Origin: Ignavibacteriales bacterium
GTDB taxonomy: Bacteria; Bacteroidota; Ignavibacteria; Ignavibacteriales; Melioribacteraceae
Assembly (NCBI GenBank): GCA_026390775.1
Contig: JAPLFF010000007.1
Location: 1,240,001-1,304,000, forward strand
Direction of reading: 5' to 3'
Length of the DNA: 64,000 bases
Positions 15,540 to 58,833 of the stretch are shown in pieces. Made by a program: the position numbers and the translations under genes. Under the pieces are notes generated by a model. It searched no databases and was not told the DNA's origin. It was given only the letters and a program-made list of their open reading frames with translations. The first letter of the stretch is position 1. Each line of letters begins with the position of its first letter.

Positions 15540-16999
15540 TTTTTGTTTAGAATAAATTTTAAAAATCGTTTTTCATTAATTATAGATTCATCACTCTTTA
15601 TAAAACCGGCAGATTTAAATCCATTAATTGAAGCAATATTATCCGGGAGGATATAAGCAGTAATAGTTGAAATGTCCTTCTCGGAAAATATTTTAGTGCA
15701 CGCTTCTTTCAAAATATTTTTCGAAAAACCCTTTCCTCTAAATTCATTTACAATGCTGATGCTTACTACCGCATCAACTTTTTTAATATCAAACCGTACT
15801 TGTCCCATAAAATTGTTTTTCTTATCAAAAGCTAACAGAAATATATAATCTTCTTTCTTTATTTTCTCGGAAAACCATTTTTTATGATCACCCAACTCAA
15901 TAGTATCAGAGGTAATAGATTGACTCCTAACAGCGGGATCATTGGATAAATCGAATACTTTTTGCGAATCAACTTCAGCCGCGCTTCGTAAATAGAATCC
16001 ATATGAATTACAAACTTTGTCTATAAGATAATTGACCACACGAATCGAACCTTGACCATCAACATTATTCACACCAATACCGCTTAATTTTTTGCGGACG
16101 GAAATTGATTGTAAAGTTTGAAATTGTTCAATAATTCTTCTTATAAAGTTTACGTCGTTATGATAAATCGTATTTAATAAAAATCCTTTTCTTTTCCATT
16201 CAAGAATATTGTTTTTTTGATTTTCTGCTACAGCAATTGCAATTGAAGGCGTACCAGTGGCAGCAAGTTCGTAAAGCGTTTGTCCTGCCGCAGTAATAGC
16301 AATATCGGAAAACAGCATCAGCTCTCGCATAAGCAAAGCCGAGGGTGAATAAAATAATTCTGTATTGATATCACGAAGTTTTTCAATTTCATCTTTGTTT
16401 ATAAAGCCGCTTCCGACTACAACTTTCTTTTTTATGGCTGGAAAGTTTTCATGCAGCGATTTTAATACTGAACATGTTAGATTCTGGCTGTCTGTTGCAC
16501 CAAATGTTATTAGTATAGAAGAGAGTTCCTTATTGAATTTTCTGTTTACTGCATTCCAAAATTCTTTTCTGAGAGGAATATATTTTGTACCCAGCAAGAA
16601 TTCCTTGCCGGGTTTTTTCTTATATGGAAAAGTTTCCGCGTTTATAGTTCCATTCAAAATAATTCCGTCCGAGTAATCTATACGGATATTGTCATCTATA
16701 AACAGTGATACTTTAGCATGCTTTGAAATATTTTCGTAAAAATCTTTTCCTACCAGATAAGAATCTATAATAACAATATCACTGTTCTTTATTTCACCGA
16801 TTAATTTTGTCGGATGTGCAGCCCAGTCTATAATCTTATAATTTGTATTCGGGAGGAGCGATCTTACATTATCATCGCCATTGATATAAAGTGTAGGAAG
16901 AATATATTTCTTTTCAAAAGCTTGATAGAGTGAAAGACACCTGGTGATGTGTCCATATCCGGTTTTTGAAAATCCTTCGGTAATAATGGAGATCTTCAT
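15536..16999 (-). CDS. pseG: PseG-PseH fusion: UDP-sugar hydrolase plus N-acetyltransferase
   Basis: The 487-residue protein joins two pathway enzymes. Residues 1-330 are PseG-like, a GT-B-fold hydrolase that removes UDP from 2,4-diacetamido-2,4,6-trideoxy-altropyranose; H17 in KTGYGHITRCLSL matches the catalytic His position, and SDIAITAAGQTLYELAATGTPSIAI is the UDP-binding C-terminal lobe. Residues 335-487 are a GNAT acetyltransferase (YGFYLRSAAEVD... then SISIVNEFRGKGFSKNILKEAC with the acetyl-CoA loop), which fits PseH, the step just before hydrolysis. There is no separate pseH in the cluster. It overlaps pseC and pseI by 4 bp each. Confidence 0.9.
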   Translation of the reverse strand: MKISIITEGFSKTGYGHITRCLSLYQAFEKKYILPTLYINGDDNVRSLLPNTNYKIIDWAAHPTKLIGEIKNSDIVIIDSYLVGKDFYENISKHAKVSLFIDDNIRIDYSDGIILNGTINAETFPYKKKPGKEFLLGTKYIPLRKEFWNAVNRKFNKELSSILITFGATDSQNLTCSVLKSLHENFPAIKKKVVVGSGFINKDEIEKLRDINTELFYSPSALLMRELMLFSDIAITAAGQTLYELAATGTPSIAIAVAENQKNNILEWKRKGFLLNTIYHNDVNFIRRIIEQFQTLQSISVRKKLSGIGVNNVDGQGSIRVVNYLIDKVCNSYGFYLRSAAEVDSQKVFDLSNDPAVRSQSITSDTIELGDHKKWFSEKIKKEDYIFLLAFDKKNNFMGQVRFDIKKVDAVVSISIVNEFRGKGFSKNILKEACTKIFSEKDISTITAYILPDNIASINGFKSAGFIKSDESIINEKRFLKFILNKK

Positions 17000-18207
17000 T
17001 TTATCTTATCAAGTGTTTCGATAATTGTATTTGAAATATATTCAAGATCTTCTTCTGTTAGAGCGGGATACATCGGTATAGATAGCTCACGTTCATAAAA
17101 TTTCTCTGCGACAGGAAAATCATGGGCGTTGAATCCAAAGTTCTTTCGATAAAATGGTTGAAGATGTACAGGAACATAATGCACCTGGCAATTGATGTTT
17201 TTCTCTTTCAATTTTAAAAAATAATTCTTCTTGGAAATTTTTAACTCGTTAAAATTTATCTGAAGAGGATAAAGATGATACGCGTGTTTTGCAAATTCGG
17301 AAACTTTTGGGATAATAAAACGATCATCCTTTCCGAAAATCTTATCATAGTATTCGGCAATTTCTCTCCGCCTTCCGATATTAAGCTCTAACTTTCTTAA
17401 TTGGCTTATTCCAAGTGCACATTGAAAATCAGTGATGCGGTAGTTAAATCCGGGTTCATGCATTTCATAATACCATGGTCCGTCATTCTTTTCGAGAACA
17501 GATTCATCTTTCGTCATTCCGTGAGTGCGGAGAGTTTTTATTTTATTATCAAGCGATTCGTTATTAGTTAGAACGGCTCCGCCTTCGCCTGTAGTAATAT
17601 GTTTTACCGGATGAAAACTAAGATTAACAGCGTCAGCATATTTTGGTGCGTACTGAATTTCATCTTTGTATTCAGCGCCGAGAGCGTGGCAATAATCATT
17701 AACAAGTTGGAATTCATATTTTTCTTGTAATGTTTTTAATGCGCTCCAATCGCATGGATGGCCGGCATAATCAACGGCAACAACTGCTTTTACTTTTCTG
17801 TTTTGTGTTGAGTATTGTTTAAGCTTCCATTCAAGTTCATTCGGGTCAAGTGTGTATGAGGATTCATCTATGTCAACGAAATCGGGCGTGGCACCAACGT
17901 ATACAGCACAATTTGCACTTGCTAAAAATGTAATTGGTGAAGTGATTACAACATCATCTTTTTTCCAACCCAATCCTAAAGCGATTAAATGGAGTCCGGC
18001 AGTTCCGTTCGAAACTACAGAAGCAAATTTTCCCCCGAACCTATTATTTAGCGCTTGCTCGAACTTCTGAATTGTTGGTCCTTGAGTAAGCCAATCGGAT
18101 TTGAGAGTTTCTACAACTGCTTGAACATCGAAATCATCAATTGATTGCTGCCCGTAGGAGAAGTGTTTTGTGATCGGTTGTTGGTTATCGGTTGTCGGTT
18201 TTTTCAT
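16996..18207 (-). CDS. pseC: PseC: UDP-4-amino-4,6-dideoxy-altrosamine aminotransferase
   Basis: This PLP enzyme of the DegT/DnrJ/EryC1 family puts the 4-amino group on the 4-keto sugar made by PseB. The 403-residue protein has SYGQQSIDDFDVQAVVETLKSDWLTQGP at the start of the fold, the PLP-lysine K202 in LSFHPVKHITTGEGG, and the usual C-terminal YHLYPLQINF. The first 14 or so residues (MKKPTTDNQQPIT) are not family sequence; they are encoded by an interspersed repeat (18171-18201) that also flanks the broken gene upstream. The downstream pseG-pseH gene overlaps by 4 bp. Confidence 0.92.
   Translation of the reverse strand: MKKPTTDNQQPITKHFSYGQQSIDDFDVQAVVETLKSDWLTQGPTIQKFEQALNNRFGGKFASVVSNGTAGLHLIALGLGWKKDDVVITSPITFLASANCAVYVGATPDFVDIDESSYTLDPNELEWKLKQYSTQNRKVKAVVAVDYAGHPCDWSALKTLQEKYEFQLVNDYCHALGAEYKDEIQYAPKYADAVNLSFHPVKHITTGEGGAVLTNNESLDNKIKTLRTHGMTKDESVLEKNDGPWYYEMHEPGFNYRITDFQCALGISQLRKLELNIGRRREIAEYYDKIFGKDDRFIIPKVSEFAKHAYHLYPLQINFNELKISKKNYFLKLKEKNINCQVHYVPVHLQPFYRKNFGFNAHDFPVAEKFYERELSIPMYPALTEEDLEYISNTIIETLDKIK
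18171..18201 (+). repeat. Family A repeat, left arm of an inverted pair
   Basis: This tract contains the units ATCGGTTGTTGG and TTATCGGTTGTCGG. Bases 18173-18199 match the reverse complement of 18577-18603 at 23 of 27 positions by eye. It forms the N-terminal codons of pseC. Confidence 0.7.
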
Positions 18208-18571
18208 TTTGATTTTATTGATGATATTAATGAATTTATCTTTTTACCCAATATGGAGTAATTATTTTTAAGTTCTTTGAATATATTCTCTTCTAAGTAG
18301 CCCAAATCTTTGGCAAGTATTAAATGGTATTTTGTTCCTTCCACTGAGCCTCGAGAGATGATTAAGAATTGTAAAAATTCTTTTTTAGAAAATCTTCCCA
18401 TCCCTTTAGTAATATTTGTCGGGATGGATTGAGCAGATCTAATAATTTGTTGTGTAGAATATAATCTTCTGACTTAGGAAATGATTTAACAACCTTATAA
18501 ATTTCTAGAACTAGAGAATGCGAAAACTTCCAAATTTCTAAATCCTCAAATGATTTAATCTTATTTATCAT
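18204..18571 (-). pseudogene. Frameshifted four-helix-bundle protein (S23/IVP, TIGR02436-like)
   Basis: The first part (from 18571) reads MINKIKSFEDLEIWKFSHSLVLEIYKVVKSFPKSEDY, the typical start of four-helix-bundle proteins related to those encoded in 23S rRNA intervening sequences. After HNKLL the frame fails; shifting frame at about 18441-18447 restores the canonical RSAQSIPTNITKGMGRFSKKEFLQFL and continues to the stop at 18204. One lost base in an AT run explains this, and the restored length of about 122 residues is normal. It lies between pseB and pseC and is bracketed by inverted family A repeats. It could be a decayed gene or a sequencing indel. Confidence 0.85.
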
Positions 18572-18573
18572 TA

Positions 18574-18624
18574 CTCACCGATAACTGATAACCGACAACA
18601 GATAACTATTATTGCTCACCGATC
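18574..18624 (-). repeat. Family A repeat, right arm of an inverted pair
   Basis: The tract has ACCGATAACTGATAACC and ACCGACAAC units in the opposite orientation to 18171-18201. It begins beside the start of the broken four-helix gene and reaches the last codons of pseB (GCTCACCGATCAC). Confidence 0.7.
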
Positions 18625-19643
18625 ACATTTGTTTTGATAAGTTGTTGCAATTCTGAGACTGAAAGAAACCATTCGTTTGTTCCGCTGTTATATTTGAAAC
18701 CGTATTCGCAAAACTTTCCGGCTTTACCACTGCTTGCAATCCGGAATTTTTCAGTATTCCAAAGTTTTAACTGTTCATTATCGCCAAGTTGGACGGAAGG
18801 AAGAATAACAAAATACTTTTCAAATTCTATTGTGTTTAGAGCATCCGCCTCAGTTATCATTTCTTCGTGTATCTTTTCGCCGGGACGAATTCCCACTTCC
18901 TGGATTTTACAATCGGGTGCGATTGCCCTAGCTAAATCTAAAATATTGAAGGAAGGAATTTTCGGAACAAATAGTTCTCCGCCCCACATTTTATCGAAGC
19001 ATTGCGATACAAAATCTACACCTTCCTGAAGTGTAATATTAAAACGCGTCATTCTTTTATCAGTAATCGGGAGAACACCTGAACTTTTCTTCTCAATGAA
19101 AAATGGAATAACAGAACCGCGGCTTCCCATAACATTTCCATAACGGACCACGGAAAATTTTATATCGTGTTTGCCTTTATAATTGTTAGCAGCAGTAAAA
19201 AGTTTATCGGATGTCAATTTAGTTGCACCATAAAGATTTATTGGTGCGGCGGCTTTATCAGTGCTAAGGGCAATAACTTTTTTAACTCCGCTTTCAAAGC
19301 AAGCATCAATTACATTTTGTCCGCCGATGATATTTGTCTTTACCGCCTCAAACGGATTGTACTCTGCTGCTGGAACTTGTTTGAGTGCAGCTGCATGAAC
19401 AACTATATCTACCTCTTCCATTGCACGCGTTAATCTCTTTGCTTCGCGAACATCGCCGATAAAATAACGCATTAGCACACTGTCTTTTTTAAATTTCGGA
19501 TCTTGCTGCATTTCAAATTGCTTCAGTTCATCTCTGCTGTAAATAATTATTTTTTTCGGATTGTAGCGTTTAAGAACAGTCTCAATAAACTTCTTACCGA
19601 AAGAACCGGTTCCACCTGTTATAAGAATAGTTTTACCGTCCAT
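18609..19643 (-). CDS. pseB: PseB: UDP-GlcNAc 4,6-dehydratase (inverting)
   Basis: PseB starts the pathway by dehydrating and C5-epimerising UDP-GlcNAc. The 344-residue SDR protein has the NAD(P) motif ILITGGTGSFGKKF, the IYSRDELKQFEMQ segment that is diagnostic for the PseB/FlaA1 group, HAAALKQVPAAEYNPFEAVKTN, and the active-site stretch STDKAAAPINLYGATKL with Tyr and Lys. The start is well placed. It is the first of the pse genes and is separated from pseC only by the four-helix-bundle remnant. The last codons overlap the right-hand family A repeat. Confidence 0.95.
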   Translation of the reverse strand: MDGKTILITGGTGSFGKKFIETVLKRYNPKKIIIYSRDELKQFEMQQDPKFKKDSVLMRYFIGDVREAKRLTRAMEEVDIVVHAAALKQVPAAEYNPFEAVKTNIIGGQNVIDACFESGVKKVIALSTDKAAAPINLYGATKLTSDKLFTAANNYKGKHDIKFSVVRYGNVMGSRGSVIPFFIEKKSSGVLPITDKRMTRFNITLQEGVDFVSQCFDKMWGGELFVPKIPSFNILDLARAIAPDCKIQEVGIRPGEKIHEEMITEADALNTIEFEKYFVILPSVQLGDNEQLKLWNTEKFRIASSGKAGKFCEYGFKYNSGTNEWFLSVSELQQLIKTNVIGEQ

Positions 19644-19725
19644 AAATCCTCGTGTTTAACTAATAACAAATTTAGGAAAATTATCATTCTGTTTGCTGTG
19701 AAAATATTTAGCAACAACTGGTTAA

Positions 19726-21117
19726 TTATAAAGAAAGAGGGTCATTGAAAAGAGATCGGCCGTTAAATCTTTCGGCTATATTATTCTCTTTATAAAACCG
19801 ATCAAAAAACGGAATGTATTTCTCGTAAAGCCTGTGGAGCTTTTCCATCTTGTAATTTTCAAAAACCCAGAGATGCTTTTTAAATTTCCACAGTTTTGAA
19901 TAAATAGCTCGGTTGTAGAGCGGGCCCGCAATTCTTATTAAAATATAAACGAGCCAATGCCAGAAATGCAATTGATAATTGATAATTGCGAATTGAGAAT
20001 TATTTATTGTTTGTTGGAAATAATATGAAGCACGTATGTGATTCATTCCATCGCCATAACCAATAATATCTTTGATCAATTTATTACGCATTGAATCTTT
20101 CTCAGCACTATAAAAACTTTCAATCCTTCCGGTCGAATAAAATTCATCAATTAATTTTTGAAATGAATTATAATCTTGAACAATAACCGAACCTTTGTAA
20201 AGCGGATCGCGGTTGAATTCTACTTCGGGATTAATAAAAATTGTTTGTTTTTCCATCAGCCAACTTTCAAGTGCCGTTGTAGATTCGAAGCAAGTCCAAA
20301 TATCTGAAACACTAATCAGATCATGAATTGATTCCTCTTCGCACAAGTAAACCACATTTTTGTAATGAGCAAGTTCGCTCATTTCATTTTTTACCGGTTC
20401 AGTTCTTTCGGGTGCATTTTCTTGTGGATGTTGTTTTAATATGAATAGAGTTGAAGGATTATTAATTATTGCTTGTTCTAAAATATTTTTTACTTTTTTC
20501 CGCTGATCTTCAATCCACTTTAATTTACTCTCATCACCTTTTGCCCAAACAAGCAATTCATCTCGTCCGCGTTTGTGATCCAACTTACCGAATGCCCATC
20601 CCGCATAACCAATTACTTTTTTGAATTGAGTACTGCTGTACTTGCGGAGGAAATCTTCTTTCTGCATGAACTTATAAATTGTATAACGATCGAATCCTAC
20701 ACCGCCGGTTACAACAATTTTATCTTTTGCTTCTGGGACTTCTTTCCTTAGGAACTCAGCCGTGCGTTCACTCCAACAGCAAACAAAATCTTGATAGAAT
20801 TTTTTATCGCGGTTGAATCCCCAATAATTAAAACTACCGTCGGTTCTAAAATTTCCTTCGGAGATAAGCGCAAACAAAGGAATATTTTGTTTATGAGCGA
20901 TCTTTGAAATTTGAAAATAGAGATTACTACCGATAGTGTTTGCTTGTAAAATTATATCCGGTTTAAGGCGGTAGATTTGATAAATATCTATATTGAGTGC
21001 GTGATGAAATTCGCAGTTCAAAAATCTTTCTGCAAAGTATCTGATAGGCAGCATCATTTCCACATCGCGCCCGACAGCAAAATCCGTAAAGCAAAGTACT
21101 TTTATTTTTTTATTCAT
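19726..21117 (-). CDS. Putative GT-B-like surface carbohydrate biosynthesis protein
   Basis: The 463-residue protein is not recognised with certainty. It looks like a two-lobed GT-B protein: KIKVLCFTDFAVGRDVEMMLPIRYFAER at the start, IVVTGGVGFDRYTIYKF in the middle, then LFILKQHPQENAPERTEPVKNEM and SISDIWTCFESTTALESWLMEKQTIFINPE (SD-TCFESTTALE), a pattern seen in CDP-glycerol-transferase-like and surface-carbohydrate proteins. No membrane segment dominates. Residues about 371-383 (NSQFAIINYQL) come from a family B repeat and are probably an insertion. It lies in the glycan locus between a GT4 gene and pseB. Confidence 0.6.
   Translation of the reverse strand: MNKKIKVLCFTDFAVGRDVEMMLPIRYFAERFLNCEFHHALNIDIYQIYRLKPDIILQANTIGSNLYFQISKIAHKQNIPLFALISEGNFRTDGSFNYWGFNRDKKFYQDFVCCWSERTAEFLRKEVPEAKDKIVVTGGVGFDRYTIYKFMQKEDFLRKYSSTQFKKVIGYAGWAFGKLDHKRGRDELLVWAKGDESKLKWIEDQRKKVKNILEQAIINNPSTLFILKQHPQENAPERTEPVKNEMSELAHYKNVVYLCEEESIHDLISVSDIWTCFESTTALESWLMEKQTIFINPEVEFNRDPLYKGSVIVQDYNSFQKLIDEFYSTGRIESFYSAEKDSMRNKLIKDIIGYGDGMNHIRASYYFQQTINNSQFAIINYQLHFWHWLVYILIRIAGPLYNRAIYSKLWKFKKHLWVFENYKMEKLHRLYEKYIPFFDRFYKENNIAERFNGRSLFNDPLSL
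19969..20003. repeat. Family B repeat inside the GT-B-like gene
   Basis: This tract shares an identical core of about 26 nt, beginning AATTGATAATTGCG and ending TTGAGAATTA, with the copy at 27921-27956. It lies in frame within the host gene and adds an Asn/Ile/Gln-rich segment. Confidence 0.7.
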
Positions 21118-21120
21118 ATT

Positions 21121-21203
21121 TATAGTTGTGTCATTCTGAAAGAGTCCGGCAGTCGCCGGACGACTGAAGAATCCGAGACTCTTCGCTTTGCTCAGAGTGA
21201 CAT
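21121..21203. repeat. REP-like interspersed repeat (family C)
   Basis: It fills the gap between two glycan genes. Blocks GTCATTCTGAAAGAG, GAAGAATCCGAGA, CTTCGCTTTGCTCAG and GAGTGACA match the order seen at 601-695. A small internal palindrome (GTCCGGCAG-TCGCCGGAC) can fold into a hairpin. Confidence 0.65.
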
Positions 21204-21204
21204 T

Positions 21205-22503
21205 TTAATGTTTTGTTATTAGATCTAAATAACCTGCCAGCTTCTTAGTTAAATTTCTATTTGAGTATTGAGAAATATCTGTTTTGTTCGATGGCAAATT
21301 GTCTTGTCTAAATTTTTCGTATAAATCTTTTACTGTTCTAATTGTTTTTTCAAGATCATTGAAATCACAAGTATAGCCGGCATTAACACCGTGAACAATC
21401 TTTGAAGCATCGCTTTCTTCCGGGCCGACAACAAGTATTGGTCTGCGTGAAGCAAGATACTCAAAAAGTTTTCCGGGGAGCCTCCCATTAACATTAGGCA
21501 TATCGTTTAGAATAAGTAACAATATTTGCGATTGGTGCATACTTTCAAGAGTTTCCTTTCTTGAAATATGATCTGATAGATTAAGATTTCCAGTTAGCCC
21601 AAGTGATTTAATTTCATCAACGATTGCATGACCGACAAATCCGACTAGCTCAATCTCAAGATTGTTCGCAAATTGTTTATTCTCATTTGCAATAATAGAA
21701 AGTGCTTTCCACAAAGTTTTTGCATTGCGGTCGGGACCCAAACTTCCGAAATGACTCAAGGTAAATTTTTTTGAAAGCGGAACATTTATGTTTTGAAAAT
21801 CATCTTCATCATAACCCCAAACAATTACGCCAACATCTTTTGCACCGATTGATTCAAGATCGTTTTTCCAAGTGTCGCTGCAGATCGTAACTTTATCCGC
21901 CCACCGAAAGACAAGTTGTTCTTTTGCTTCATGAATTTTTTTTGATATCGGATTCAACATAAGCTGGGGGAAATAATCCACTTGTGTCCAAGGATCTTGA
22001 AAATCTGCATGCCATGGAATTTTTAAATTTCTCTTTATCTCGTACGCGATCATGTGAGTAGATTGAGGCGGACCGTTGGTGAATAAAACATCAACAGGAT
22101 TATCTTTTAAATATTTAGATAAAAATTTTACCGAGGGACGAATCCAAAACTTTCGGGCATCAGGAATAAAAATATTTCCGCGAATCCAGATGCCAAGTTT
22201 ATGTCCGATACTTGGTTTTTCTTCTTCAATAAAAACATTGTGAATCCGCTCTTCCTTTTTCTTGCCCGTGATGAATTTAAATAAATTATACGGTTCCCAA
22301 ATTTTAGTTTTTAAAATTTTAACACTGTTCGGTATGTCCTTAAAATTTCCTTCATCTAAAACAGGATATTCGGGATTCTCTGCAGTACAGATAACCGGTT
22401 CCCAACCGAACTCGCGTAAATATTTTGTAAACTTTAAGCAGCGGTGAACAGCAATACCGCCTGCAGGTGGCCAATAGTATGATATGATCAAAACTTTTTT
22501 CAT
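21205..22503 (-). CDS. Glycosyltransferase family 4-type
   Basis: The 432-residue GT-B protein starts KVLIISYYWPPAGGIAVHRCLKFTKYLREFGWEPVICT, the glycine-rich N-terminal lobe of GT4 enzymes. The C-terminal lobe has FTLSHFGSLGPDRNAKTLWKAL and LLLILNDMPNVNGRLPGKLFEYLASRRPILVVGPEESDA, with the GKLFEYLA donor-binding motif. The substrate is unknown. It starts at the last base of the flippase stop (TAATG), so the two are translationally coupled. Confidence 0.9.
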   Translation of the reverse strand: MKKVLIISYYWPPAGGIAVHRCLKFTKYLREFGWEPVICTAENPEYPVLDEGNFKDIPNSVKILKTKIWEPYNLFKFITGKKKEERIHNVFIEEEKPSIGHKLGIWIRGNIFIPDARKFWIRPSVKFLSKYLKDNPVDVLFTNGPPQSTHMIAYEIKRNLKIPWHADFQDPWTQVDYFPQLMLNPISKKIHEAKEQLVFRWADKVTICSDTWKNDLESIGAKDVGVIVWGYDEDDFQNINVPLSKKFTLSHFGSLGPDRNAKTLWKALSIIANENKQFANNLEIELVGFVGHAIVDEIKSLGLTGNLNLSDHISRKETLESMHQSQILLLILNDMPNVNGRLPGKLFEYLASRRPILVVGPEESDASKIVHGVNAGYTCDFNDLEKTIRTVKDLYEKFRQDNLPSNKTDISQYSNRNLTKKLAGYLDLITKH

Positions 22504-24020
22504 TAGTGAGTTATATTCTCTGAATCTTCGGGCGCTTTATCAGATCCGCGAATTATTCCTTTAACAAAGTCTATCATTTTAACGGGACTTAAAAGTATAT
22601 CCAATTCCCGTTTTTCATAAAAGCGGAAGAAGAAAAGAATAAACGGAAATGAAATAGTAATAATTATTTTAATTAAGAAAGTTAGAACAAAATTCATTTG
22701 AGGTAAAAAATAAATAGGCGATGAAAGTATAATTCCAATTAGAATCATCACAAGCAGCTTGGAATTTTCATACGGAATCTTTAAATATTTATTCGAAAAG
22801 ATCTGAGTTATGAAATAAAAAATCGTGAATGAAATTAAAGTATTCACAGCGGCGGCAATAATTCCGTATTTAGGTATAAAAATAAAATTTAAAATAATAT
22901 TTAAGGCAGCGGCGGCGGTTGTAATCCACGCAATATGCTTTGTGTTTTTTGTTAAAAACATTCCTATAGAAGCGGTTAAACGCATTCCGCTTAGGACATA
23001 AGAAAGAAGAATGATCGGGATTACTATAAAAGCTGAACGATATTCGCCTTGAGGGGCAAACATACCGACAATCTCTTTGCTGAATAATGAAAGAAGAATA
23101 AATCCCCAGACAAAAAAGAAAGTCGAGTAGGTCATTAATTTTGTGAAGAAGCGGTTATCATCCGGCATTCCGTAATATTTATATGCTAATGGCAATAACC
23201 CCAAACTGAATGGTAAAATTAAAAACATATTGAGTACGCCGGCAACGCGATAACCTAAACCGTATATCGCTACAGATTTTGCACCGAGTAAAAGTTTTAT
23301 TATAAATCGGTCGCTTTGATTAAGCAGCATAAAACCCAACGCACTGAATATTAAAGGCAATCCGAATTTTAACGCAGTAACAAAAATTTGATTATTAAAA
23401 TCGAATTTCATCTTTGGAATTATTCTTAATAAAAGAACAAGCACAGTAAATAATTCTGCCGTTAAAGTTGCGTACAAAATTCCTTCTATTCCAAGATTGG
23501 CAAATGCTACAAAGTAAATTGTTATGCACGTCATCAATAAAGTTTTAGCAATGCTGACAATAGAGTAATAACCTGCCTCCTCGTCGGCGCGGACTTTAGC
23601 AAGGAACAAATCGTTCATTACACGGAGAAGTACTATGTAAGCAATTAAACGGATGTAAATGGATTTGAATTGCGAATGCTCAAAAAAGGAAGAATGATTT
23701 GATATTAATAGTTCGGTAATCAAAACAAGAATAACACAGACGGAAAAAACAAATGCAGACAAGGTAAAAAGCGCCGATTCCTTCTGCCCTTTGTATTCTT
23801 TGCTGTTATTTAAAAAAATTATTGAACTTGCCTGACCGAGAATTGCAACTCCGGCGAGTATCTGAATTGAGTTGTCAATCAAATCCCAGTTGCCGAATTC
23901 ACTTATAGTTAATTTAGCCGTGAACAACGGAAGTAAAATTACACCGACTATTTTCGGCGCAATATTACTTAGACTATAAACAAATGTATCACGGACTGTA
24001 CTTTTAAGTCGTTCAAGCAT
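22503..24020 (-). CDS. Polysaccharide flippase (Wzx/MATE-like)
   Basis: The 505-residue protein has about 12-14 hydrophobic segments spread over its whole length and starts with RLKSTVRDTFVYSLSNIAPKIVGVILLPLFTAKL, the usual opening of O-antigen and oligosaccharide flippases. Its expected role is to move lipid-linked glycan units across the inner membrane. The upstream YfhO gene ends exactly where it starts, and the following glycosyltransferase gene overlaps its stop. The C-terminal tail is short and charged. Confidence 0.88.
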   Translation of the reverse strand: MLERLKSTVRDTFVYSLSNIAPKIVGVILLPLFTAKLTISEFGNWDLIDNSIQILAGVAILGQASSIIFLNNSKEYKGQKESALFTLSAFVFSVCVILVLITELLISNHSSFFEHSQFKSIYIRLIAYIVLLRVMNDLFLAKVRADEEAGYYSIVSIAKTLLMTCITIYFVAFANLGIEGILYATLTAELFTVLVLLLRIIPKMKFDFNNQIFVTALKFGLPLIFSALGFMLLNQSDRFIIKLLLGAKSVAIYGLGYRVAGVLNMFLILPFSLGLLPLAYKYYGMPDDNRFFTKLMTYSTFFFVWGFILLSLFSKEIVGMFAPQGEYRSAFIVIPIILLSYVLSGMRLTASIGMFLTKNTKHIAWITTAAAALNIILNFIFIPKYGIIAAAVNTLISFTIFYFITQIFSNKYLKIPYENSKLLVMILIGIILSSPIYFLPQMNFVLTFLIKIIITISFPFILFFFRFYEKRELDILLSPVKMIDFVKGIIRGSDKAPEDSENITH

Positions 24021-26555
24021 TTATAATTTTTCCGAGGCGTTCTTTTTTCTTGATAAGAAAAATGTGAAGACCAATCCACCGAACATTACCAAATTAAGAA
24101 TCAACGATAAATATTTTCCTAAAACAAAATTTTTAGGCTCATAGATAAATTCAACTTTATGTTCCCCTTTCGGCACAACAATTCCCATAAATCCATGATT
24201 TGTTTTATGAATAGTTGTTTTCGCCTTATCAATAAAAGCTTTCCATCCAGGCAAATAAGTCGTACCAAAAAACAAAAAGCAATTTCCTTGCGATTTTGTT
24301 TCTGCGGTAATCCGTTCATCTTTGTATTCGGATATTATGGCAGTGTTTGTGGAATCTCCTTTATCAAATTTGAAATCCATAGAGTTAACAAAAGCAACCT
24401 TTTTTGGATTGAACGAATTTTCTTTTATTGCATTCAATATTTCGGAAGAAGATTTCTGAGCAACACTGTCAACAAAGTAAACACGTGAAAGCGACATGTC
24501 GTTTCGATTAACAAATGTTGTTGAATCTTGTGACATAGCAATAGTTGTAAAGTACGGGAACGGAAATGGTTTATCGGTTACAATGTATTTTACACCGAGC
24601 ATTCGCCATAATGTAAAATTAGCAGGTGTTACTACATCCATAATATCTTGATAGCTGCGCGGTTTTATAGCAGAGTAGCCCGATAAATCCTCCTGCAGAA
24701 AGTAAACATTGTAATTTGCATTGCTGCTCGCAGTGCCCATCCCAGAGCGTTTCAGGTTCAAAATTCTAAACGGATTTTTTTCATTTTGTTTTTTTATCAC
24801 AGAAATATATTCCGGCTCGCGGAACAATTCCTTTATTTGTTCTACTTCAACATAATTTGCGCCGCGATTTCCAATTCTGAAAAGATCAAATAAAATCATT
24901 ACAGCGAGTCCAAAAACAAATAGTTCTTTATTTAGTTTAGAAGTTACATAAGCATAACTTATGCCGGCAGTAAGAGCGAGAAGAGCGAGCGCAATTATCA
25001 AATCGGTCTTAAACATATCCGACATATATTCAGTAAGTGCTGTAAACATTTGAGATTGTTGTGACTGACCAAGTAATGCGGCATGATCGTTAATGCGTTG
25101 AGTAAACCAACTTCCTAAACTCTCACCGAGAATGATTGATAAAAGAAATAATCCTGCAAAAAATATGGCTGCATTCCTTAAAACTTTTTCGAGCTTAGGA
25201 TTTTTCTCTTCACGGAGAGAAATAATTTTCATTACACCAAAACCCGCCAGAATGGGAAATGTGATTTGAAGAACTGTAAGAATCATCGAAGGTGCGCGAA
25301 AGTTGTTGAATGCAGGGAAGTAGTGATACATCAAATTATATATTACAGGAAAATTATTTCCGAATGAGATAAGTAAAAAAAGCAGAACGATTATACCGAA
25401 AAATTGAATGACCGGTTCTTTCCATCGGACGAAGAGAGTAAAAAGCCCTAACGCAAATATTATTACACCCATATACATCGGCACGTCTACACTTCTCATC
25501 TGTCCAAAATATGTATTTACCGGTGCATCTTGATTTTGAGAAAGAGGTCCGTTGTAAGTAGAATTACCGTAACCGTAAAAGGAGGGAACGATGAAGGTTA
25601 AAACTTCGCCGGGCGAGAACGAATAACTGGTTGCATATTCGTATGACTCGCTTTGTATCGGTGTACCCGGATTTTGTTCTTCAGTCAAACTTTTTGTTCC
25701 GCGTGTTGAATAAGGTTTGTATTCATAAAGCTGAGAATAAGTATCGAATGACATGAGCAAAGCAATTAATCCGGCGGCGGCGGTAACGCCGAGAGATTTT
25801 AATAACTGCTTCTGCAAAAATTTATCTTTTATAACAAATGAACGAATGAAAAAATAAATGAAATAAATCATTGTAGTAAATGCAAAGTAAAAAACGATTT
25901 GGACATGAGCACCCAGAACGAGAATATGCAATCCGAAAACAAAAAGTAAAACATCAAGCAGTTTTATCTCCTTCTGAAATTTAAAAAGCATCATTAAAAT
26001 AAATGGGAAAAGAGCAAGACTCATCAGCTTTGTAATATGTCCTATATAAAAGAAGAGAAGTATCCCGGTGCTAAATGCCGTTGCAACTGCAACAAGAAAA
26101 CTTACGCTCCGGCTTGCGCCGAATCTTCTCATAAACATGAACGACGTAAATGCCAGAATAACAAAACTGAAAGTATAAATTGCATTGTAATCGCGGAAGA
26201 AAGACGAATAAACTCTTGTAGTGTATGAATAGACCGAAGCGGTTAGATCAAACCAGCGCAGCGACATTGAAGTTGCAACTGCTGGCATTCCGCAAAATAT
26301 GTAAGGATTCCAAAGAGAAAATCCGTCGCGGTCTTTTGTAGCGTATTCTCTCAAACTTTTTACCTGTATAAGATCGCCGGAAGATGTGGTTTTATTTCCA
26401 AACATTACAGGCGAGAAGAAGATTAAGATTAAGAGTAAGATCAAGAGTAATAACGCAGGTGTTTGATATTTTTTCGGAATGTACTTATCAAATGAAAAAC
26501 CGTTCTCGTTAGATTTGGTTTGTGCCGGTGTAAATTTTTTTTGCTGCTTCGCCAT
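24021..26555 (-). CDS. YfhO family membrane protein
   Basis: The 844-residue protein has many membrane segments (about residues 35-560), with a short cytoplasmic N-terminus and a soluble C-terminal part. The stretches RDGFSLWNPYIFCGMPAV and AFNNFRAPSMILTVLQITFPILAGFG are typical of YfhO-family GT-C-like proteins, which in Firmicutes glycosylate lipoteichoic acid from a lipid-linked sugar. The C-terminal LPGWKAFIDKAKTTIHKTNHGFMGIVVPKGEHKVEFIYEP and a last membrane pair also fit. In this glycan locus it may be a lipid-linked sugar transferase. GAGAATAA precedes the start. Confidence 0.9.
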   Translation of the reverse strand: MAKQQKKFTPAQTKSNENGFSFDKYIPKKYQTPALLLLILLLILIFFSPVMFGNKTTSSGDLIQVKSLREYATKDRDGFSLWNPYIFCGMPAVATSMSLRWFDLTASVYSYTTRVYSSFFRDYNAIYTFSFVILAFTSFMFMRRFGASRSVSFLVAVATAFSTGILLFFYIGHITKLMSLALFPFILMMLFKFQKEIKLLDVLLFVFGLHILVLGAHVQIVFYFAFTTMIYFIYFFIRSFVIKDKFLQKQLLKSLGVTAAAGLIALLMSFDTYSQLYEYKPYSTRGTKSLTEEQNPGTPIQSESYEYATSYSFSPGEVLTFIVPSFYGYGNSTYNGPLSQNQDAPVNTYFGQMRSVDVPMYMGVIIFALGLFTLFVRWKEPVIQFFGIIVLLFLLISFGNNFPVIYNLMYHYFPAFNNFRAPSMILTVLQITFPILAGFGVMKIISLREEKNPKLEKVLRNAAIFFAGLFLLSIILGESLGSWFTQRINDHAALLGQSQQSQMFTALTEYMSDMFKTDLIIALALLALTAGISYAYVTSKLNKELFVFGLAVMILFDLFRIGNRGANYVEVEQIKELFREPEYISVIKKQNEKNPFRILNLKRSGMGTASSNANYNVYFLQEDLSGYSAIKPRSYQDIMDVVTPANFTLWRMLGVKYIVTDKPFPFPYFTTIAMSQDSTTFVNRNDMSLSRVYFVDSVAQKSSSEILNAIKENSFNPKKVAFVNSMDFKFDKGDSTNTAIISEYKDERITAETKSQGNCFLFFGTTYLPGWKAFIDKAKTTIHKTNHGFMGIVVPKGEHKVEFIYEPKNFVLGKYLSLILNLVMFGGLVFTFFLSRKKNASEKL

Positions 26556-26584
26556 TTATTCTCCAATAGTTTTTCTTAGCTATC

Positions 26585-26660
26585 TCTGCGAATACTCTGC
26601 GATCTTTGCGTTTAAGGCTTTTAACCTGCCTGCGGCAGGCAGGCGCAGAGAACGCAAAGT
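26585..26660. repeat. Intergenic repeat with CTGCG units and a GC-rich palindrome (family D)
   Basis: Two CTCTGCG units and TCTTTGCG (left) face GCGCAGAG-AACGCAAAG (right), and in the centre CCTGCCTGCGGCAGGCAGG (26625-26643) forms a strong palindrome. It lies between the GT4 and YfhO genes on their template strand and can fold into a large hairpin. Related palindromes lie at 40230-40249 and 58781-58800. Confidence 0.6.
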
Positions 26661-27920
26661 TTATTTTAAAATTGTACTTGCATAATTATCCCAGCTCATA
26701 TTTGCTGCTTGTTCTGCAACGTGTTTGCATGGAATTGGTTTTTCTAAGAACAATTTCATCATTTCATACATTGATTTAATATTTCCCGGTTCAGCAAGAT
26801 AACCGTTGTAGCCGTGCTTTATCGTTTCTGGAAAATGTCCGACTCTTGTTGCAATACTTGGCAATTTAAAATTATAAGCGATTGATTCTACTCCCGAAGG
26901 AGTGGCAACAAGATAAAATAAAACATTGCAGTCCGCCACTTGAAAATATTTATGCACTTCTTCATTTCCAACGTAACGGTTTACAACAACAACCTGTTCA
27001 CGAATGCCAAGCTCGTCAATTAAATCAAGAGGACGGTAATTGCTTCCGTCATCGCTTTTACGGATCAGTATTTTCTTTATCAATCCGAAAATATTTTTTT
27101 TTATTATTGTCGATAATTTTTTTGTGTCAAGCGTATTCCAAAATGATTCTCCGACAATCAGAAGCGAAACGTCATCACGTTCTTTGGCTAATTTTGCAAA
27201 AGAACGAATTACGTTATGCAACCCTTTGTATTTGCGGATGAATCCAAAAAACAAAAAAACATGTTTTCGCAATCCAAGTTCTTTTTTAATTTTTTCCTTG
27301 TCGAAAGAAGGATCAGGAATAAACATATCGTAAACGGGATGATAGAGTTTAATAACAAATTTGTTGTCAGTTATCGGTGATCGGTTGTCGGTGATTTCAA
27401 ATTTTTGGTTCGGGAATATTTTCTTTAGTTCATCAAATGTTTTTAGAGAGTGTACGATAAAGGTGTGTGGTTTAGAAAGCGCATACCGGATCATTGCATT
27501 ATCAATTGCACTGCCTTCTTTCTGAGCAACTACGTGAAGATCAAAAATGATTTCGCATTTGCAAACTTGCTTTAGTTTATTTGCAATCCATCCCATTGGC
27601 AATCCTTGAATTGCAATTGCCCACTGAAATATTACTATATCAGGATTTATCTTACCAATAGCATCAACAGTTTTTTTCCATGATAAGGGATTATTGTAGT
27701 TAGTTATGTATTCGACTTTTATGCTGGTCTCTTCGAGAAGATTTTTTTTGCTTGAGTGGTCAATGAAATCACGCGGAATTATTGAAGGATATTGCTGTGT
27801 CCATGAGACGATGTGAACATCGGCGCCGAGTTTGTTTAGTGCCTTTGCAAGCGACGTCGTGTAATTTGCAATTCCGCCCTTGAATTGCGGACCCGGGCCG
27901 AAGACAACAACTTTTTTCAT
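26661..27920 (-). CDS. Glycosyltransferase family 4-type with in-frame repeat insertions
   Basis: From ATG 27920 the product is 419 residues, starting MKKVVVFGPGPQFKGGIANYTTSLAKALNKLG, a GT4 N-lobe. The C-lobe has FLFFGFIRKYKGLHNVIRSFAKLAKE and LFYLVATPSGVESIAYNFKLPSIATRVGHFPETI with the expected E-x7-E style region. A GTG at 27974 would add 18 residues, but these (NSQFAIINSKL) come from a family B repeat, so 27920 is preferred. Residues about 175-187 (TDNRSPITDN) are coded by a family A repeat, an insertion between the lobes. Confidence 0.85.
   Translation of the reverse strand: MKKVVVFGPGPQFKGGIANYTTSLAKALNKLGADVHIVSWTQQYPSIIPRDFIDHSSKKNLLEETSIKVEYITNYNNPLSWKKTVDAIGKINPDIVIFQWAIAIQGLPMGWIANKLKQVCKCEIIFDLHVVAQKEGSAIDNAMIRYALSKPHTFIVHSLKTFDELKKIFPNQKFEITDNRSPITDNKFVIKLYHPVYDMFIPDPSFDKEKIKKELGLRKHVFLFFGFIRKYKGLHNVIRSFAKLAKERDDVSLLIVGESFWNTLDTKKLSTIIKKNIFGLIKKILIRKSDDGSNYRPLDLIDELGIREQVVVVNRYVGNEEVHKYFQVADCNVLFYLVATPSGVESIAYNFKLPSIATRVGHFPETIKHGYNGYLAEPGNIKSMYEMMKLFLEKPIPCKHVAEQAANMSWDNYASTILK
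27362..27396 (+). repeat. Family A repeat inside a glycosyltransferase gene
   Basis: The tract TTGTCAGTTATCGGTG followed by ATCGGTTGTCGGTG repeats the units seen at 18171-18201 in the same orientation. It keeps the host frame and encodes TDNRSPITDN on the minus strand. Confidence 0.7.
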
Positions 27921-27956
27921 CAATTTAGAATTGATAATTGCGAATTGAGAATTAAA
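27921..27956. repeat. Family B repeat at the 5' edge of a glycosyltransferase gene
   Basis: It lies directly upstream of ATG 27920 and shares the roughly 26-nt core with 19969-20003. It may have created or changed the translation start region, since no clear ribosome-binding site remains before 27920. Confidence 0.7.
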
Positions 27957-27963
27957 TTTTGTT

Positions 27964-29019
27964 TCATTTTTCACTTTTCAAGTTTGCAACAGCAACATCA
28001 TAAACACGTTTCATTCCTTCTTCTAAGGAAATTCTCGGTTCCCATCCTAATTTTTCTTTAACAAAACTCATATCACAATAACGTGAATGTACTCCCATCG
28101 GTTTATCAACAAGGGGTTTAATTGTTGGATTGTAATCAGCAAACTTGCAGAAGATTTTTATCAGATCAATGAAAGTTGTAAGCTTACCCGAGCCGATATT
28201 TATCGCAGTTCCATCATGGATTTTATCCATCGCAATAAACATGCAATCCATTACATCATCAATATGAACAAAATCTCTTCCTTGCTGACCGGTTCCCCAA
28301 ACAACAAACGGATTTTCTTTTTTTGCTGCACGCGCTGCAATTGCCGGAACGGGATAGGTTAAATCCTGATCTTCGCCGTAACCACTGAAGGGACGAATAC
28401 AAACAATCGAAATTCCATAATTACGTGCGGCTATCTTTGCTAAAAATTCACCGGTCATTTTTGTCCAGCCGTAAGTTAGATCAGGCATGCCGAGTACGAA
28501 TCCGTCTATATTAATATCTGCTTCTTTCAGTGCAACAGCATCACTTTCTGTCTGCATGTTGATTGGATAAGCGGCTGATGAACTTGGATACATTACACGT
28601 TCAGGTTTTGCTTTTGCAATCCAATTAAAAAATTCCGCATCTATAGAAAGATCAAGCGCTACAGCCATCGGGTCGCCCTCAATCTTTGCTCTGCCGCCAA
28701 CGATAGCCGCAAAATGAAACGCATCACCAAAACGATCTATCTTTAAACCGTATTCTCTTTCAAGCCATTTGGGATCTTCTAAAAGATTATTTAAGAATTT
28801 TCTAAAATCCATCTTCCAATAAAAAAGCCGTTCATCCTTACCAAAAATTTCTATGTCTTTGATTTTTTTTGTTGTCTTATCACGAAGCCATGTTGATGGA
28901 TGTGTTCCGACAGACAGGTCATCAACCATAATAACCGAATCATTTGTTCTTTTGAGCAATTGTTTAACCGTGTTTCTGCCGACAAAACCGCAAGCGCCCG
29001 AGACTAAATGATATTTCAT
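27964..29019 (-). CDS. NAD-dependent epimerase/dehydratase (extended SDR)
   Basis: The 351-residue protein starts MKYHLVSGACGFVGRNTVKQLL with the GxxGFxG nucleotide motif, then VDDLSVG. The active-site region is PSSSAAYPIN and LTYGWTKMTGEFLAKIAARNYG (YxxxK), and GTGQQGRDFVHIDDVMDCMF is the conserved C-terminal signature of UDP- and GDP-sugar epimerases. It probably modifies a nucleotide sugar for the surface glycan. Several activities are possible (4-epimerase, 3,5-epimerase or decarboxylase). Confidence 0.9.
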   Translation of the reverse strand: MKYHLVSGACGFVGRNTVKQLLKRTNDSVIMVDDLSVGTHPSTWLRDKTTKKIKDIEIFGKDERLFYWKMDFRKFLNNLLEDPKWLEREYGLKIDRFGDAFHFAAIVGGRAKIEGDPMAVALDLSIDAEFFNWIAKAKPERVMYPSSSAAYPINMQTESDAVALKEADINIDGFVLGMPDLTYGWTKMTGEFLAKIAARNYGISIVCIRPFSGYGEDQDLTYPVPAIAARAAKKENPFVVWGTGQQGRDFVHIDDVMDCMFIAMDKIHDGTAINIGSGKLTTFIDLIKIFCKFADYNPTIKPLVDKPMGVHSRYCDMSFVKEKLGWEPRISLEEGMKRVYDVAVANLKSEK

Positions 29020-29128
29020 GTGAATAAATTCCTAATGTTGATCTAAAAATAAGAATTTTTAATTAGAATGTAGGGGGCAGAATAAAGAAGCAGTTCATAG
29101 AATAAAACGAATAAATTTTAAGTACTAA

Positions 29129-30262
29129 TCATTTCTGTTCCTTAATCACGTACTCTTTTTCATCTTGAAAATTATGGACTAAAATTTCTCCCAACAAACC
29201 AATTGCAAAGAATTGCACACCGACAATGATTAATAAGATTCCCAGAAAAAAGATCGGTCTGTTAGCTATAGGTGAGTGGGGATTAACAAAGAACCATTCG
29301 TATGCTAATACAATATTAATTCCAAATCCAATTAAGGCGATAAAAAATCCAACAAAACCGAAAAGATGCATCGGACGTTTAATGTACCTTGTTGTAAAAA
29401 TAACCGTGATTAAATCAACGAAACCTTTGAAGAATCTTGATATACCGAATTTTGTTTTACCATAACGGCGGGGATGATGTTTAACAATAATTTCCGCAAC
29501 AGAAAATCCTTTCCAGTTGGCAAGAACAGGAATGTATCGGTGAAGTTCGCCGTATACACTAATATTTTGAACAACTTGTTTTCGGTATGCTTTTAATCCG
29601 CAATTAAAATCATGAATTTTAACTTTAGTAAATAGCCGTGTTATATAATTGAAAAATTTGGATGATAATTTTTTAACTATCGGATCATATCTTTTTTTCT
29701 TCCAGCCGGAAACAAGATCATAACCTTCTTCAAGTTTTTTTAAGAGATTAGGAATTTCAGCCGGATCGTCTTGAAGATCGGCATCCATTGTAATAACCGC
29801 ATCACCCGTAACATGCTTGAATGCGACTTGAAGTGCGGCAGATTTTCCGTAATTAGTCCGGAAGCTGAAATAATGAATTTTATTGTCAATTCGGGCAAGT
29901 TCTTTGATCATATTTAAGGATTTATCAGAACTACCGTCATCAACAAAAATAATTTCGTAATCGGAGGAGATTCCCCGAAGTGTTTTTTTTATTTCATTGT
30001 AAAGCGGTCTAAGAGATTCTTCTTCATTTAAAAACGGGACAACAATAGAAATCTTCTTAAAGCTGAAATTCTGGACTTGCGGCGGTGGTTGGTTTGGTTC
30101 ACCTGAAGAAGGGCGGAATTTTTTTCTGTTATTGTAATATCTTCTATAAGGTTTTTTAGGTTGATTCTGCTTTTGTGATTGCTGGGGCGGCTGATTTTGC
30201 GCCGGAATTATTTCTGGTTTTGGCTGCTGTGTCTGCGGTTCCGGTTTATTCTGATTATCCAA
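29129..30262 (-). CDS. Family 2 glycosyltransferase, DPM1/GtrB-like, with Pro/Gln-rich N-terminus
   Basis: The 377-residue protein has an unusual 65-residue N-terminal tail rich in Pro, Gln and Lys/Arg (QTQQPKPE, KKPYRRYYNNRKKFRP). The catalytic GT-A domain follows: ISIVVPFLNEEESLRPLYNEI, IIFVDDGSSDKS, VITMDADLQDDPAEIPNLL and FNCGLKAYRKQVV. Two C-terminal membrane segments (HLFGFVGFFIALIGFGINIVLAYEWFF and IFFLGILLIIVGVQFFAIGLLGEIL) match polyprenyl-phosphate glycosyltransferases that make lipid-linked sugars. It is the first gene of the minus-strand glycan locus. The basic tail could bind membrane or partners. Confidence 0.9.
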   Translation of the reverse strand: MDNQNKPEPQTQQPKPEIIPAQNQPPQQSQKQNQPKKPYRRYYNNRKKFRPSSGEPNQPPPQVQNFSFKKISIVVPFLNEEESLRPLYNEIKKTLRGISSDYEIIFVDDGSSDKSLNMIKELARIDNKIHYFSFRTNYGKSAALQVAFKHVTGDAVITMDADLQDDPAEIPNLLKKLEEGYDLVSGWKKKRYDPIVKKLSSKFFNYITRLFTKVKIHDFNCGLKAYRKQVVQNISVYGELHRYIPVLANWKGFSVAEIIVKHHPRRYGKTKFGISRFFKGFVDLITVIFTTRYIKRPMHLFGFVGFFIALIGFGINIVLAYEWFFVNPHSPIANRPIFFLGILLIIVGVQFFAIGLLGEILVHNFQDEKEYVIKEQK

Positions 30263-30429
30263 AGACTTATCCGTTTATTTCTGAAATCGTTGATGCTTTT
30301 GTTTATTCTTATCAAAGTTAAAATAAGAAGTTGCTAAAATCAATTTGGCAAATGAACTGCATTGTAATTAGCCAAAGTTGACACTGCTTACAACAATCTT
30401 TAGATTTCCTTTAATAAGAAAGCAATTTT

Positions 30430-39152: not shown

Positions 39153-40219
39153 ATGAAAACAAAATATGCTTATTTAATAATTCTAATTCTCAATTCTCAA
39201 TTTGCCATTCTCAATTCGCAATCAATTCGTCCTATCCGTGATGATATTGGTTTTTGCTGGAGTGCAGAAGAGATGAACCAATTTTGAATTATTTATCAAA
39301 GGAAGATCACGCCGGATCAGTAGATCATTCCAAAAATCTTTTTGCCGCCATTTCCGTACATGATGATTATCTCTATGCAGGGAAAGTTTACTATCCGCTC
39401 TATAAAAATATCAAGACAAAAGAAGTTGTGATCTTTGGTGTAACACATGGGACAGTACGAAAGGAAATGGGTTCGCTATCTAATATTATTATACTTGATG
39501 AATTTGATAAATGGCGAGGACCCTACAAAGACGTAGAGATTTCTCCGTTAAGAGAGATTATTAAATTAGAACTTCCAAAGGAAGATTTTATTGTAAGCAA
39601 CAAAGCTCAAAGTATTGAACATTCAATCGAAGCTCTCGTTCCATTTCTTCAATTTTATAATCGAGATATTAAGATCACACCAATTATGATAACACAAATG
39701 CCGTATGAAAAAATGGAAGTCATAACAGATCGGCTCTCAAAAATAATTTTGGACTACATACGTACAAATAATCTTAAACTCGGGGAAGATATATTTTTTC
39801 TTATCTCTAACGATGCAAATCATTATGGTGAGGATTTTAACAATTCACCTTACGGTATGGATGAAGCTGCGCATAAAACGGCGACAGAAAATGATATGAA
39901 AATAATTATGAAAGATTTAGTTTCAGAAGTTACGAATGAAAAAATTCAAAATACTGCAAACGATCTTTGGCCCGATCCGGAAAACAAAAAAATAGTTCCT
40001 TTATGGTGCGGAAGATATCCGATTGTTTTCGGCTTGCAGACAATACTCAAAGTTGTTAATGGTTTGGGTAATCACAAAGTTTATGGAACGCTTTTCAAGT
40101 ACTCGGACACATTCACGGAAAAAGTTCTGCCGGTAAAAAATACAAGCATGGGATTAACAGCGGTATTCTCTTATAAACATTGGTGTGCATGGTTTACTGA
40201 AGGATTTTATTTGAAATGA
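39153..40219 (+). pseudogene. Memo-family (AmmeMemoRadiSam B) protein, frameshifted, with leader peptide
   Basis: From ATG 39153 the frame reads a signal-like leader (YAYLIILIL), then SIRPIRDDIGFCWSAEEMNQF and a TGA. Shifting one base in the TTTT run at 39282-39285 joins it to the following long frame (NYLSKEDHAGSVDHS... to 40219) with Memo features: VHDDYLYAGKVYYPLYKNIK, FGVTHGT, IEHSIEALVPFLQFYN and FLISNDANHYGEDFN. A lost T in the run explains it. The leader is partly built from a family B repeat. Memo proteins normally lack a leader, so a secreted or membrane-tethered copy is unusual. Its usual partners (AmmeMemoRadiSam A and radical SAM) are absent here. Confidence 0.8.
39179..39222. repeat. 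Family B repeat in the leader of the Memo-family gene
   Basis: Three copies of an ATTCTCAATT-type unit (39181-39218), one with TGCC inserted, encode ILNSQFAILNSQ. It matches the reverse complement of the cores at 19969 and 27921 over about 16 nt (ATTCTCAATTCGCAAT). Confidence 0.6.
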
Positions 40220-40229
40220 AAAAGTCAAA

Positions 40230-40249
40230 CCTACCTGCCGGTAGGCGGG
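40230..40249. repeat. Family D palindrome
   Basis: CCTACCTGCCGGTAGGCGGG, preceded by GTCAAA and followed by TGTGAAA, matches the copy at 58781-58800 including these flanks. It lies just before the YiiX-like gene. Confidence 0.65.
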
Positions 40250-40264
40250 TGTGAAAGGTGAAAA

Positions 40265-58751: not shown

Positions 58752-58780
58752 CATTTTTACATGAAAAGTGAATTGTCAAA

Positions 58781-58800
58781 CCTACCTGTCGGTAGGCAGG
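58781..58800. repeat. Family D palindrome
   Basis: CCTACCTGTCGGTAGGCAGG with GTCAAA before and CGTGAAAA after. Same flanks and core as 40230-40249. Confidence 0.65.
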
Positions 58801-58833
58801 CGTGAAAAGTTTTTAATAATAAACGAGGAATCC

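Follow-up and report, generated by a model that had tools for sequence, protein, structure and literature searches.

Heptamer arrays inside a glycosyltransferase gene and in the arms of 23S_rRNA_IVP elements

A heptamer array in a glycosyltransferase linker

The window, by which we mean the whole stretch of 64,000 nucleotides analysed here (contig JAPLFF010000007.1 of an Ignavibacteriales bacterium, whose genome is called G000 below), carries a glycosyltransferase gene with a tandem repeat between the segments that encode its two domains:

27362-27396, plus strand: heptamer array of TCGGT/TCAGT + NN units, inside the glycosyltransferase gene, in the interdomain linker
26661-27920, minus strand: GT-B glycosyltransferase of 419 amino acids; the array makes residues 177-186

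The letters at 27362-27395, TGTTGTCAGTTATCGGTGATCGGTTGTCGGTGAT, form a tandem 7-mer array with the units GTTGTCA, GTTATCG, GTGATCG, GTTGTCG and GTGAT (type GTTATCG). Translated on the minus strand (27392-27363), it reads TDNRSPITDN and falls between Glyco_transf_4 (residues 15-174) and Glycos_transf_1 (208-407). The original prediction of a repeat lying in frame between the two domains is thus borne out by the translation and the domain positions, and also by the excess over chance. The period-7 score of the loop is 0.76, and nothing in the rest of the gene equals it (at most 0.52). In the 64-kb window, the two-unit pattern has 9 matches against 0.93 expected, a number reached by none of 100 shuffles, and period-7 runs number 8, against a mean of 0.55 and a maximum of 2 in 20 Markov simulations. 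Over the whole genome, a three-unit pattern with at most two mismatches gives 32 overlapping matches, and its reversed control 1. An Rfam scan of 16900-30300 found no rRNA match and returned just two matches, both far under their gathering scores.

Fifteen close orthologues, that of G000 included, were retained out of 57 genomes searched; 13 are full length, and those of G018 and G007 were read in part. Periodicity of the loop is at least 0.71 in six of them (G000, G008, G011, G003, G005 and G009), lower in G001 and G004, which we call degenerate, and at background in the remaining seven, so that the array cannot count as a conserved feature of the protein. Aligning orthologues was the check proposed with the original prediction, and conservation of the peptide by protein sequence, which would have spoken against it, was not what the alignment gave. 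No other part of the enzyme varies as much as the loop, whose sequences are unrelated and 21 to 31 residues long over the 15 orthologues: 21 in G000, G011, G003 and G001, 29 in G009 and G004, and 31 in G005 and in G008, where a second insert of 30 nt within the array accounts for the length. That the array had added ten residues, as first proposed, did not hold up: the seven array-free loops are longer (23-28 residues against 21), which argues that in G000 the array replaced or filled a loop already variable. The orthologue tree has too low a resolution to tell a single origin of the array from repeated ones. No IVP gene was seen in, or just before, the glycosyltransferase gene of any relative examined. 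The G018 orthologue (L050) looks frameshifted past the loop.

The pseB-pseC element, reading frames and further arrays

The PseC protein (start 18207) opens with MKKPTTDNQQPITK, encoded by an array at 18170-18203. This array belongs to an inverted pair around a 23S_rRNA_IVP gene (IVP gene hereafter):

18170-18206, plus strand: heptamer array forming the 3' arm (as seen from the IVP gene) of the inverted pair; source of the PseC N-terminus KKPTTDNQQPIT
18231-18547, minus strand: frameshifted 23S_rRNA_IVP gene (PF05635, four-helix bundle, S23), between the arms
18573-18608, minus strand: heptamer array forming the 5' arm of the inverted pair, immediately before the IVP start
16996-18207, minus strand: PseC-like DegT/DnrJ/EryC1 aminotransferase, which takes its N-terminus from the 3' arm
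18609-19643, minus strand: PseB-like dehydratase, whose last codons (VIGEQ) are heptamer-like

The IVP gene matches PF05635 in two frameshifted halves of 82.1 and 27.7 bits (cut-off 33.8) over 18231-18547, and the element has terminal inverted repeats: the predicted RNA fold pairs the two arms with each other (z = -3.48), and none of 100 shuffles is as stable. The N-terminus of PseC is an arm of an IVP element, a setting overlooked by the original prediction, which had rightly traced the PseC array to the repeat family. The array translations also bear out its claim that one nucleotide repeat family encodes both the glycosyltransferase and the PseC peptides. The glycosyltransferase array has the unit family of the PseC arm and the polarity of 3' arms; it is a single arm, and no terminal inverted repeats are found there.

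PseC homologues occur in 10 of 12 genomes of the genus, and the pseB-pseC junction was read in ten. Seven junctions hold an IVP gene, intact, frameshifted or partly deleted (G000, G010, G001, G006, G004, G007 and G009); G003 is masked by N; and G005 and G002 lack the gene, G002 retaining its last codons. These two IVP-less genomes still carry heptamers in the start of PseC. By inspection, many units in the arms of G000, G010 and G007 have the core TCGGT, and the cores in both arms of G001, G006 and G009 are mostly TTGGT or TTAGT. When arms of the seven orthologous elements were paired with their own partners or with those of other species, own pairs had no clear advantage, so that co-variation of the arms at pseB-pseC is a matter of inspection only.

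As 7 has no common factor with 3, a heptamer array gives on either strand a single peptide cycle whatever the frame (PITDNR* on one strand, LSVIGYR on the other), and the frames are bound to agree; likeness of peptides between two proteins is therefore uninformative on frame keeping. A stop recurs every 21 nt in the array, and variant units avoid it in both the glycosyltransferase and the pseC genes. The proposal that the element spreads in coding DNA while keeping the frame accordingly stands in its first half, with in-frame arrays in several other genes, and is overstated in its second: frame agreement is partly trivial, the sole need being to avoid the stop that recurs every 21 nt.

Further arrays in the window, to which no strand was assigned, are the following:

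27920-27964: family B array (unit AATTCTC), immediately before the glycosyltransferase start; the unit differs between species
19966-20012: family B array inside the 463-aa ORF 19726-21117, encoding NNSQFAIINYQL
11469-11506: family B array encoding LLRIENSELRIM in ORF 10258-11574, in its C-terminal part
39181-39217: heptamer array (CAATTCT) between ORFs
40248-40281: heptamer array of the GTGAAAA type, spanning the start of ORF 40265

ORF 10258-11574 starts with MSNSITTHQQPIT, similar to the PseC peptide. Elsewhere in G000, family A arrays encode segments of other proteins: an EamA transporter at its N-terminus (MIKVTPTTDNRSLTTNHRSPIT), a further protein at its signal-peptide-like start (MKKIYLLIVVSCQLSVVSGQ), a tyrosine recombinase (NSDQLSVISDQI) and, within its linker, an E2 acyltransferase. 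At L007 (1494-1551), the array strand that gives LSVVSCQ-type peptides appears to act as a signal peptide. The E2 linkers vary by species and look heptamer-rich in G000, G008, G003 and G005. Matches in T9SS tails (L017 and L034) may be partly ordinary coding similarity and were left out of the array count. In the recombinase, all nine aligned homologues have 44 residues in the region concerned, with or without an array (TCGGT-type in three, TCAGC-type in two, intermediate in one, L256, and none in three). As the length does not change, simple insertion does not explain the replacement; we conjecture that short-patch copying between arrays would account for it.

Palindromes accompany some arrays. 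A repeat of about 30 nt, CCGCTTCGAC...GCGAGGCGAG, lies in either orientation inside heptamer arrays at four places: the glycosyltransferase loop of G008 (L038), the E2 linkers of G003 (L269) and G008 (L268), and upstream of the glycosyltransferase in G009 (L043). It is as if heptamer arrays were its target. Palindromes resembling CCTGCCTGCGGCAGGCAGG occur in the window at 26627-26650, 40224-40259 and 58775-58810, and among heptamer units upstream of the glycosyltransferase in two relatives (L039 and L042).

IVP genes and their arms across genomes

PF05635 matches were found in 38 of 39 genomes of the genus and its relatives, up to 19 in each; the homologues of known structure are 2gsc and 2rld, with five chains in each entry. 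Among 29 IVP loci of these genomes, 15 have a period-7 score of at least 0.71 in both flanks (the 3' flank of L074 is masked), and their units, which vary from element to element, are inverted complements of each other within any one element. Period 8 outscores period 7 in one or both flanks of L068, L071, L078 and L097, perhaps as a variant arm unit or by chance.

A scan of named genomes yielded 80 IVP loci, from Poribacteria, Chloroflexi, Cyanobacteria, Bacteroidota, Acidobacteria, Nitrospirae, Patescibacteria, deltaproteobacterial lineages and others. Full flanks were available for 76, and removal of 13 orthologous duplicates left 63. A period-7 score of at least 0.75 is reached by the 5' flank of 40 of these, the 3' flank of 26, either flank of 48 and both flanks of 18, against 2, 1 and 3 (5', 3' and either) of 59 controls taken 1.2 kb away, an enrichment that is flattered because the control windows are probably mostly coding. 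Other intergenic gaps of the same loci are a fairer control, and arrays are present in 14 of 70 such gaps as against 43 of 81 beside IVP genes (Fisher P = 4e-5). Heptamer arrays thus need not derive from IVP elements: they are generally common in these genomes and enriched at IVP genes, and inverted complementarity is the sharper mark. Complementary arms (score of at least 24) flank 50 of the 63 loci and 1 of 59 controls; swapped pairs reach this score in 16.9% of cases, and none of 10000 permutations attained the observed mean complementarity. The periods 5, 6, 9 and 10 are absent from the flanks, and period 8 appears once.

Arm units of the 63 loci conform to T-H-R-G-Y-N-N. Identity between neighbouring units, over 216 comparisons, is.88,.82,.87,.99,.94,.50 and.38 from the first to the seventh position, a contrast between core and free positions that is partly built in, since the phases were set by the core. 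Counting only arms in which one phase gives three or more core matches, 36 of 38 5' arms are forward and 33 of 34 3' arms reverse (69 of 72 together). Arms are missing or in direct orientation at L330, L327, L068, L095 and L100. On plasmids, where 8 of 24 IVP matches were read, six of the eight loci have period 7 in both flanks and seven have a stem score of at least 29; L327 has its arms in direct orientation and L330 has no period-7 arms. The IVP gene of the Picosynechococcus PCC 7003 plasmid (L330) has cas10 and cmr3 as its two neighbours in a type III-B CRISPR operon, and that of the Pseudanabaena galeata plasmid (L327) stands between cas6 and cas4.

Two further sites of the genus were compared with and without the element. 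At L067, G000 has an IVP gene with TTAGCNN arms; G005, G003 and G009 have no IVP gene but keep TTAGC heptamers, two to three in number, from which the C-terminus of the upstream gene is translated; neither feature is present in G001, G006, G002 or G010, and in G004 the IVP gene is broken. At L069, G005 shows a clean short junction. The same site in G011 and G010 (L217 and L218) holds another IVP-like gene with other arms than in G000, a relation read by eye, and this occupancy by differing IVP-like genes suggests a hot spot or replacement. The two sites fit the view that coding ends can retain heptamers once an IVP gene is lost, but do not reveal by what route an array entered the glycosyltransferase gene. 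No clear target-site duplication was seen at the element-free sites of L067 and L069, whose boundaries are blurred by heptamers. Among 112 loci compared at 80% identity over 250 nt, no transposition pair (one element with differing flanks) was recognised, and the strong pairs looked orthologous.

Origin of the glycosyltransferase array and known heptamer systems

Taken as a whole, the glycosyltransferase repeat is probably best explained as a tandem array of heptamers, like those that bound IVP elements. Such an element consists of a PF05635 gene between two inverted-complement arrays, with T-H-R-G-Y-N-N units on the coding strand in the 5' arm and their reverse complement in the 3' arm; as RNA, the arms can pair into a long stem, as in the intervening sequence (IVS) of 23S rRNA. 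Outside rRNA, these elements often lie between co-directional operon genes, where their arms can reach into the genes on either side, overlapping the upstream one at its end and the downstream one at its start, and upon decay or deletion of the IVP gene, heptamers can remain in the coding ends. The glycosyltransferase array may have arisen through loss of an element, of which it would be a scar, or as a copy of an arm, for instance of the pseB-pseC arms 9 kb away. The arrays that survive would be only those whose lengths and unit variants stay open in tolerant segments, such as termini, loops, linkers and signal peptides.

An ordinary heptanucleotide microsatellite, generated by polymerase slippage in a tolerant linker and owing nothing to IVP genes, is a less likely but serious competitor, under which 7 nt would simply be a preferred slippage length in many bacteria. 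According to one survey, as summarised in the available part of PMC4679880, heptanucleotide repeats are the most abundant class in most genomes; arrays do stand in 14 of the 70 gaps devoid of IVP genes, and solo arrays outnumber IVP-linked ones both in the window and in the G000 genome. Relatives show no IVP gene at ten other solo-array sites of G000: when these were compared with 50 sequences of IVP loci from relatives, in which some loci are represented twice, none matched. Neither does the number of arrays per genome support a link with the number of IVP genes (rho 0.36, against 0.40 for the reversed control pattern). Slippage, however, predicts identical neighbouring units, whereas IVP arms share a 5-nt core followed by two free positions (.82 to.99 against.50 and.38, with the partial circularity mentioned above), and the glycosyltransferase array varies as IVP arms do, with the unit of the PseC arm and the polarity of 3' arms.

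It is improbable that the arrays spread by themselves, as MITE-like elements or, in the manner of a diversity-generating retroelement, through a reverse transcriptase and an Avd-like IVP protein, and overwrite short coding stretches. The different heptamer types at one site of the recombinase homologues at unchanged length would agree with this, as would the species-specific units at the junction upstream of the glycosyltransferase and the existence of inverted pairs without an IVP gene (L020 and L018). One IVP protein matches bAvd, but weakly (24.5 bits, under the cut-off of 40), and no target-site duplication was recognised at the two loci compared. RVT_1 is present in just 11 of 39 genomes; a search of G000, which is 99.94% complete, gave 0 matches, and G001, G006 and G047, which hold 16 to 19 IVP matches, have none. 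Spread by a reverse transcriptase was set aside, RVT_1 being absent from G000 and from 28 of the 39 genomes searched. Far less probable still is that the peptide is conserved for protein function, with the DNA repeat as a by-product. A similar peptide is retained at one place in four close genomes; yet the loop varies more than any other part of the enzyme, is unrelated in sequence among orthologues and is interrupted by a 30-nt insert in G008, and the orthologue alignment largely refutes such conservation.

Degenerate tandem arrays of heptamers like those described here are present in cyanobacteria as STRR (short tandemly repeated repetitive) sequences, for which we know of no link to IVP genes. 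Repeat DNA is also tolerated in frame inside proteins in the case of the Rickettsia palindromic elements, which are palindromes of some 100-150 nt, whereas the array here is a direct heptamer array of 34 nt.

The tandem repeats of Borgs likewise create new protein segments, namely disordered regions; host, unit and setting differ, and the available part of the article mentions neither IVP genes nor inverted arms (PMC9879509). Close to the window element is the 23S rRNA IVS, in which a PF05635 ORF lies within a hairpin of terminal inverted repeats with heptamers in an arm. In Coxiella, two to three tandem GACAGAT repeats, variable between strains, are reported just upstream of the S23 ORF, and the stem is cleaved by RNase III (from the available part of PMC4990558). 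The Azospirillum lipoferum IVP locus that we read lies inside 23S rRNA, with GACAGAG/GACGGAT arms; the window element, in contrast, stands between pseB and pseC of a sugar operon, within 16900-30300 where no rRNA match was found, and its unit is TCGGT/TCAGT + NN. Direct repeats of the heptamer TAACTGA are known from Beggiatoaceae, Cyanobacteria and Bacteroidetes (MacGregor 2015, PMC4679880). As far as the available part of that article goes, they lie mostly just upstream of start codons in one genome, some fall within ORFs and give ITDN-type or LSVISYQ-type peptides, and they are proposed as regulatory sites, no mechanism of spread having been found. The unit family is the same, TAACTGA being the reverse complement of TCAGTTA; in the glycosyltransferase array it occurs once, amid variant units, rather than as at least two direct units. 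What differs is that such units are tied here to IVP genes as inverted arms; the terms '23S', 'S23' and 'helix bundle' are absent from the main text of PMC4679880. The Coxiella heptamers and the TAACTGA repeats are thus already known, and in the open-access literature of PubMed Central we found nothing that joins heptamer arrays with IVP genes in general.

The heptamer-armed IVP element is likely a widespread, under-described form of IVS-like element. A broader reading can be offered tentatively, at somewhat less than even chances: that a class of hairpin-arm elements, marked by PF05635 (S23/IVP) genes, extends through many bacterial phyla, mostly outside rRNA and in operons, and that its T-H-R-G-Y-N-N arm units have a fixed grammar and polarity and stay matched between the two arms, perhaps through being read by the IVP protein or by a processing enzyme. 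The unexplained arrays of cyanobacteria, Beggiatoaceae and Bacteroidota would then be arms or scars, and arrays would continually rewrite adjacent coding DNA into termini, linkers and signal peptides. This would join the S23 gene of the 23S rRNA IVS and the heptamer arrays of several phyla in one system with a testable grammar, and would give a concrete route for the conversion of non-coding repeat DNA into protein, in linkers, in signal peptides and at the ends of genes. For the genes annotated as 'Four helix bundle protein' inside operons, such as those in the type III-B CRISPR operon and between cas6 and cas4, the arms may affect transcript processing.
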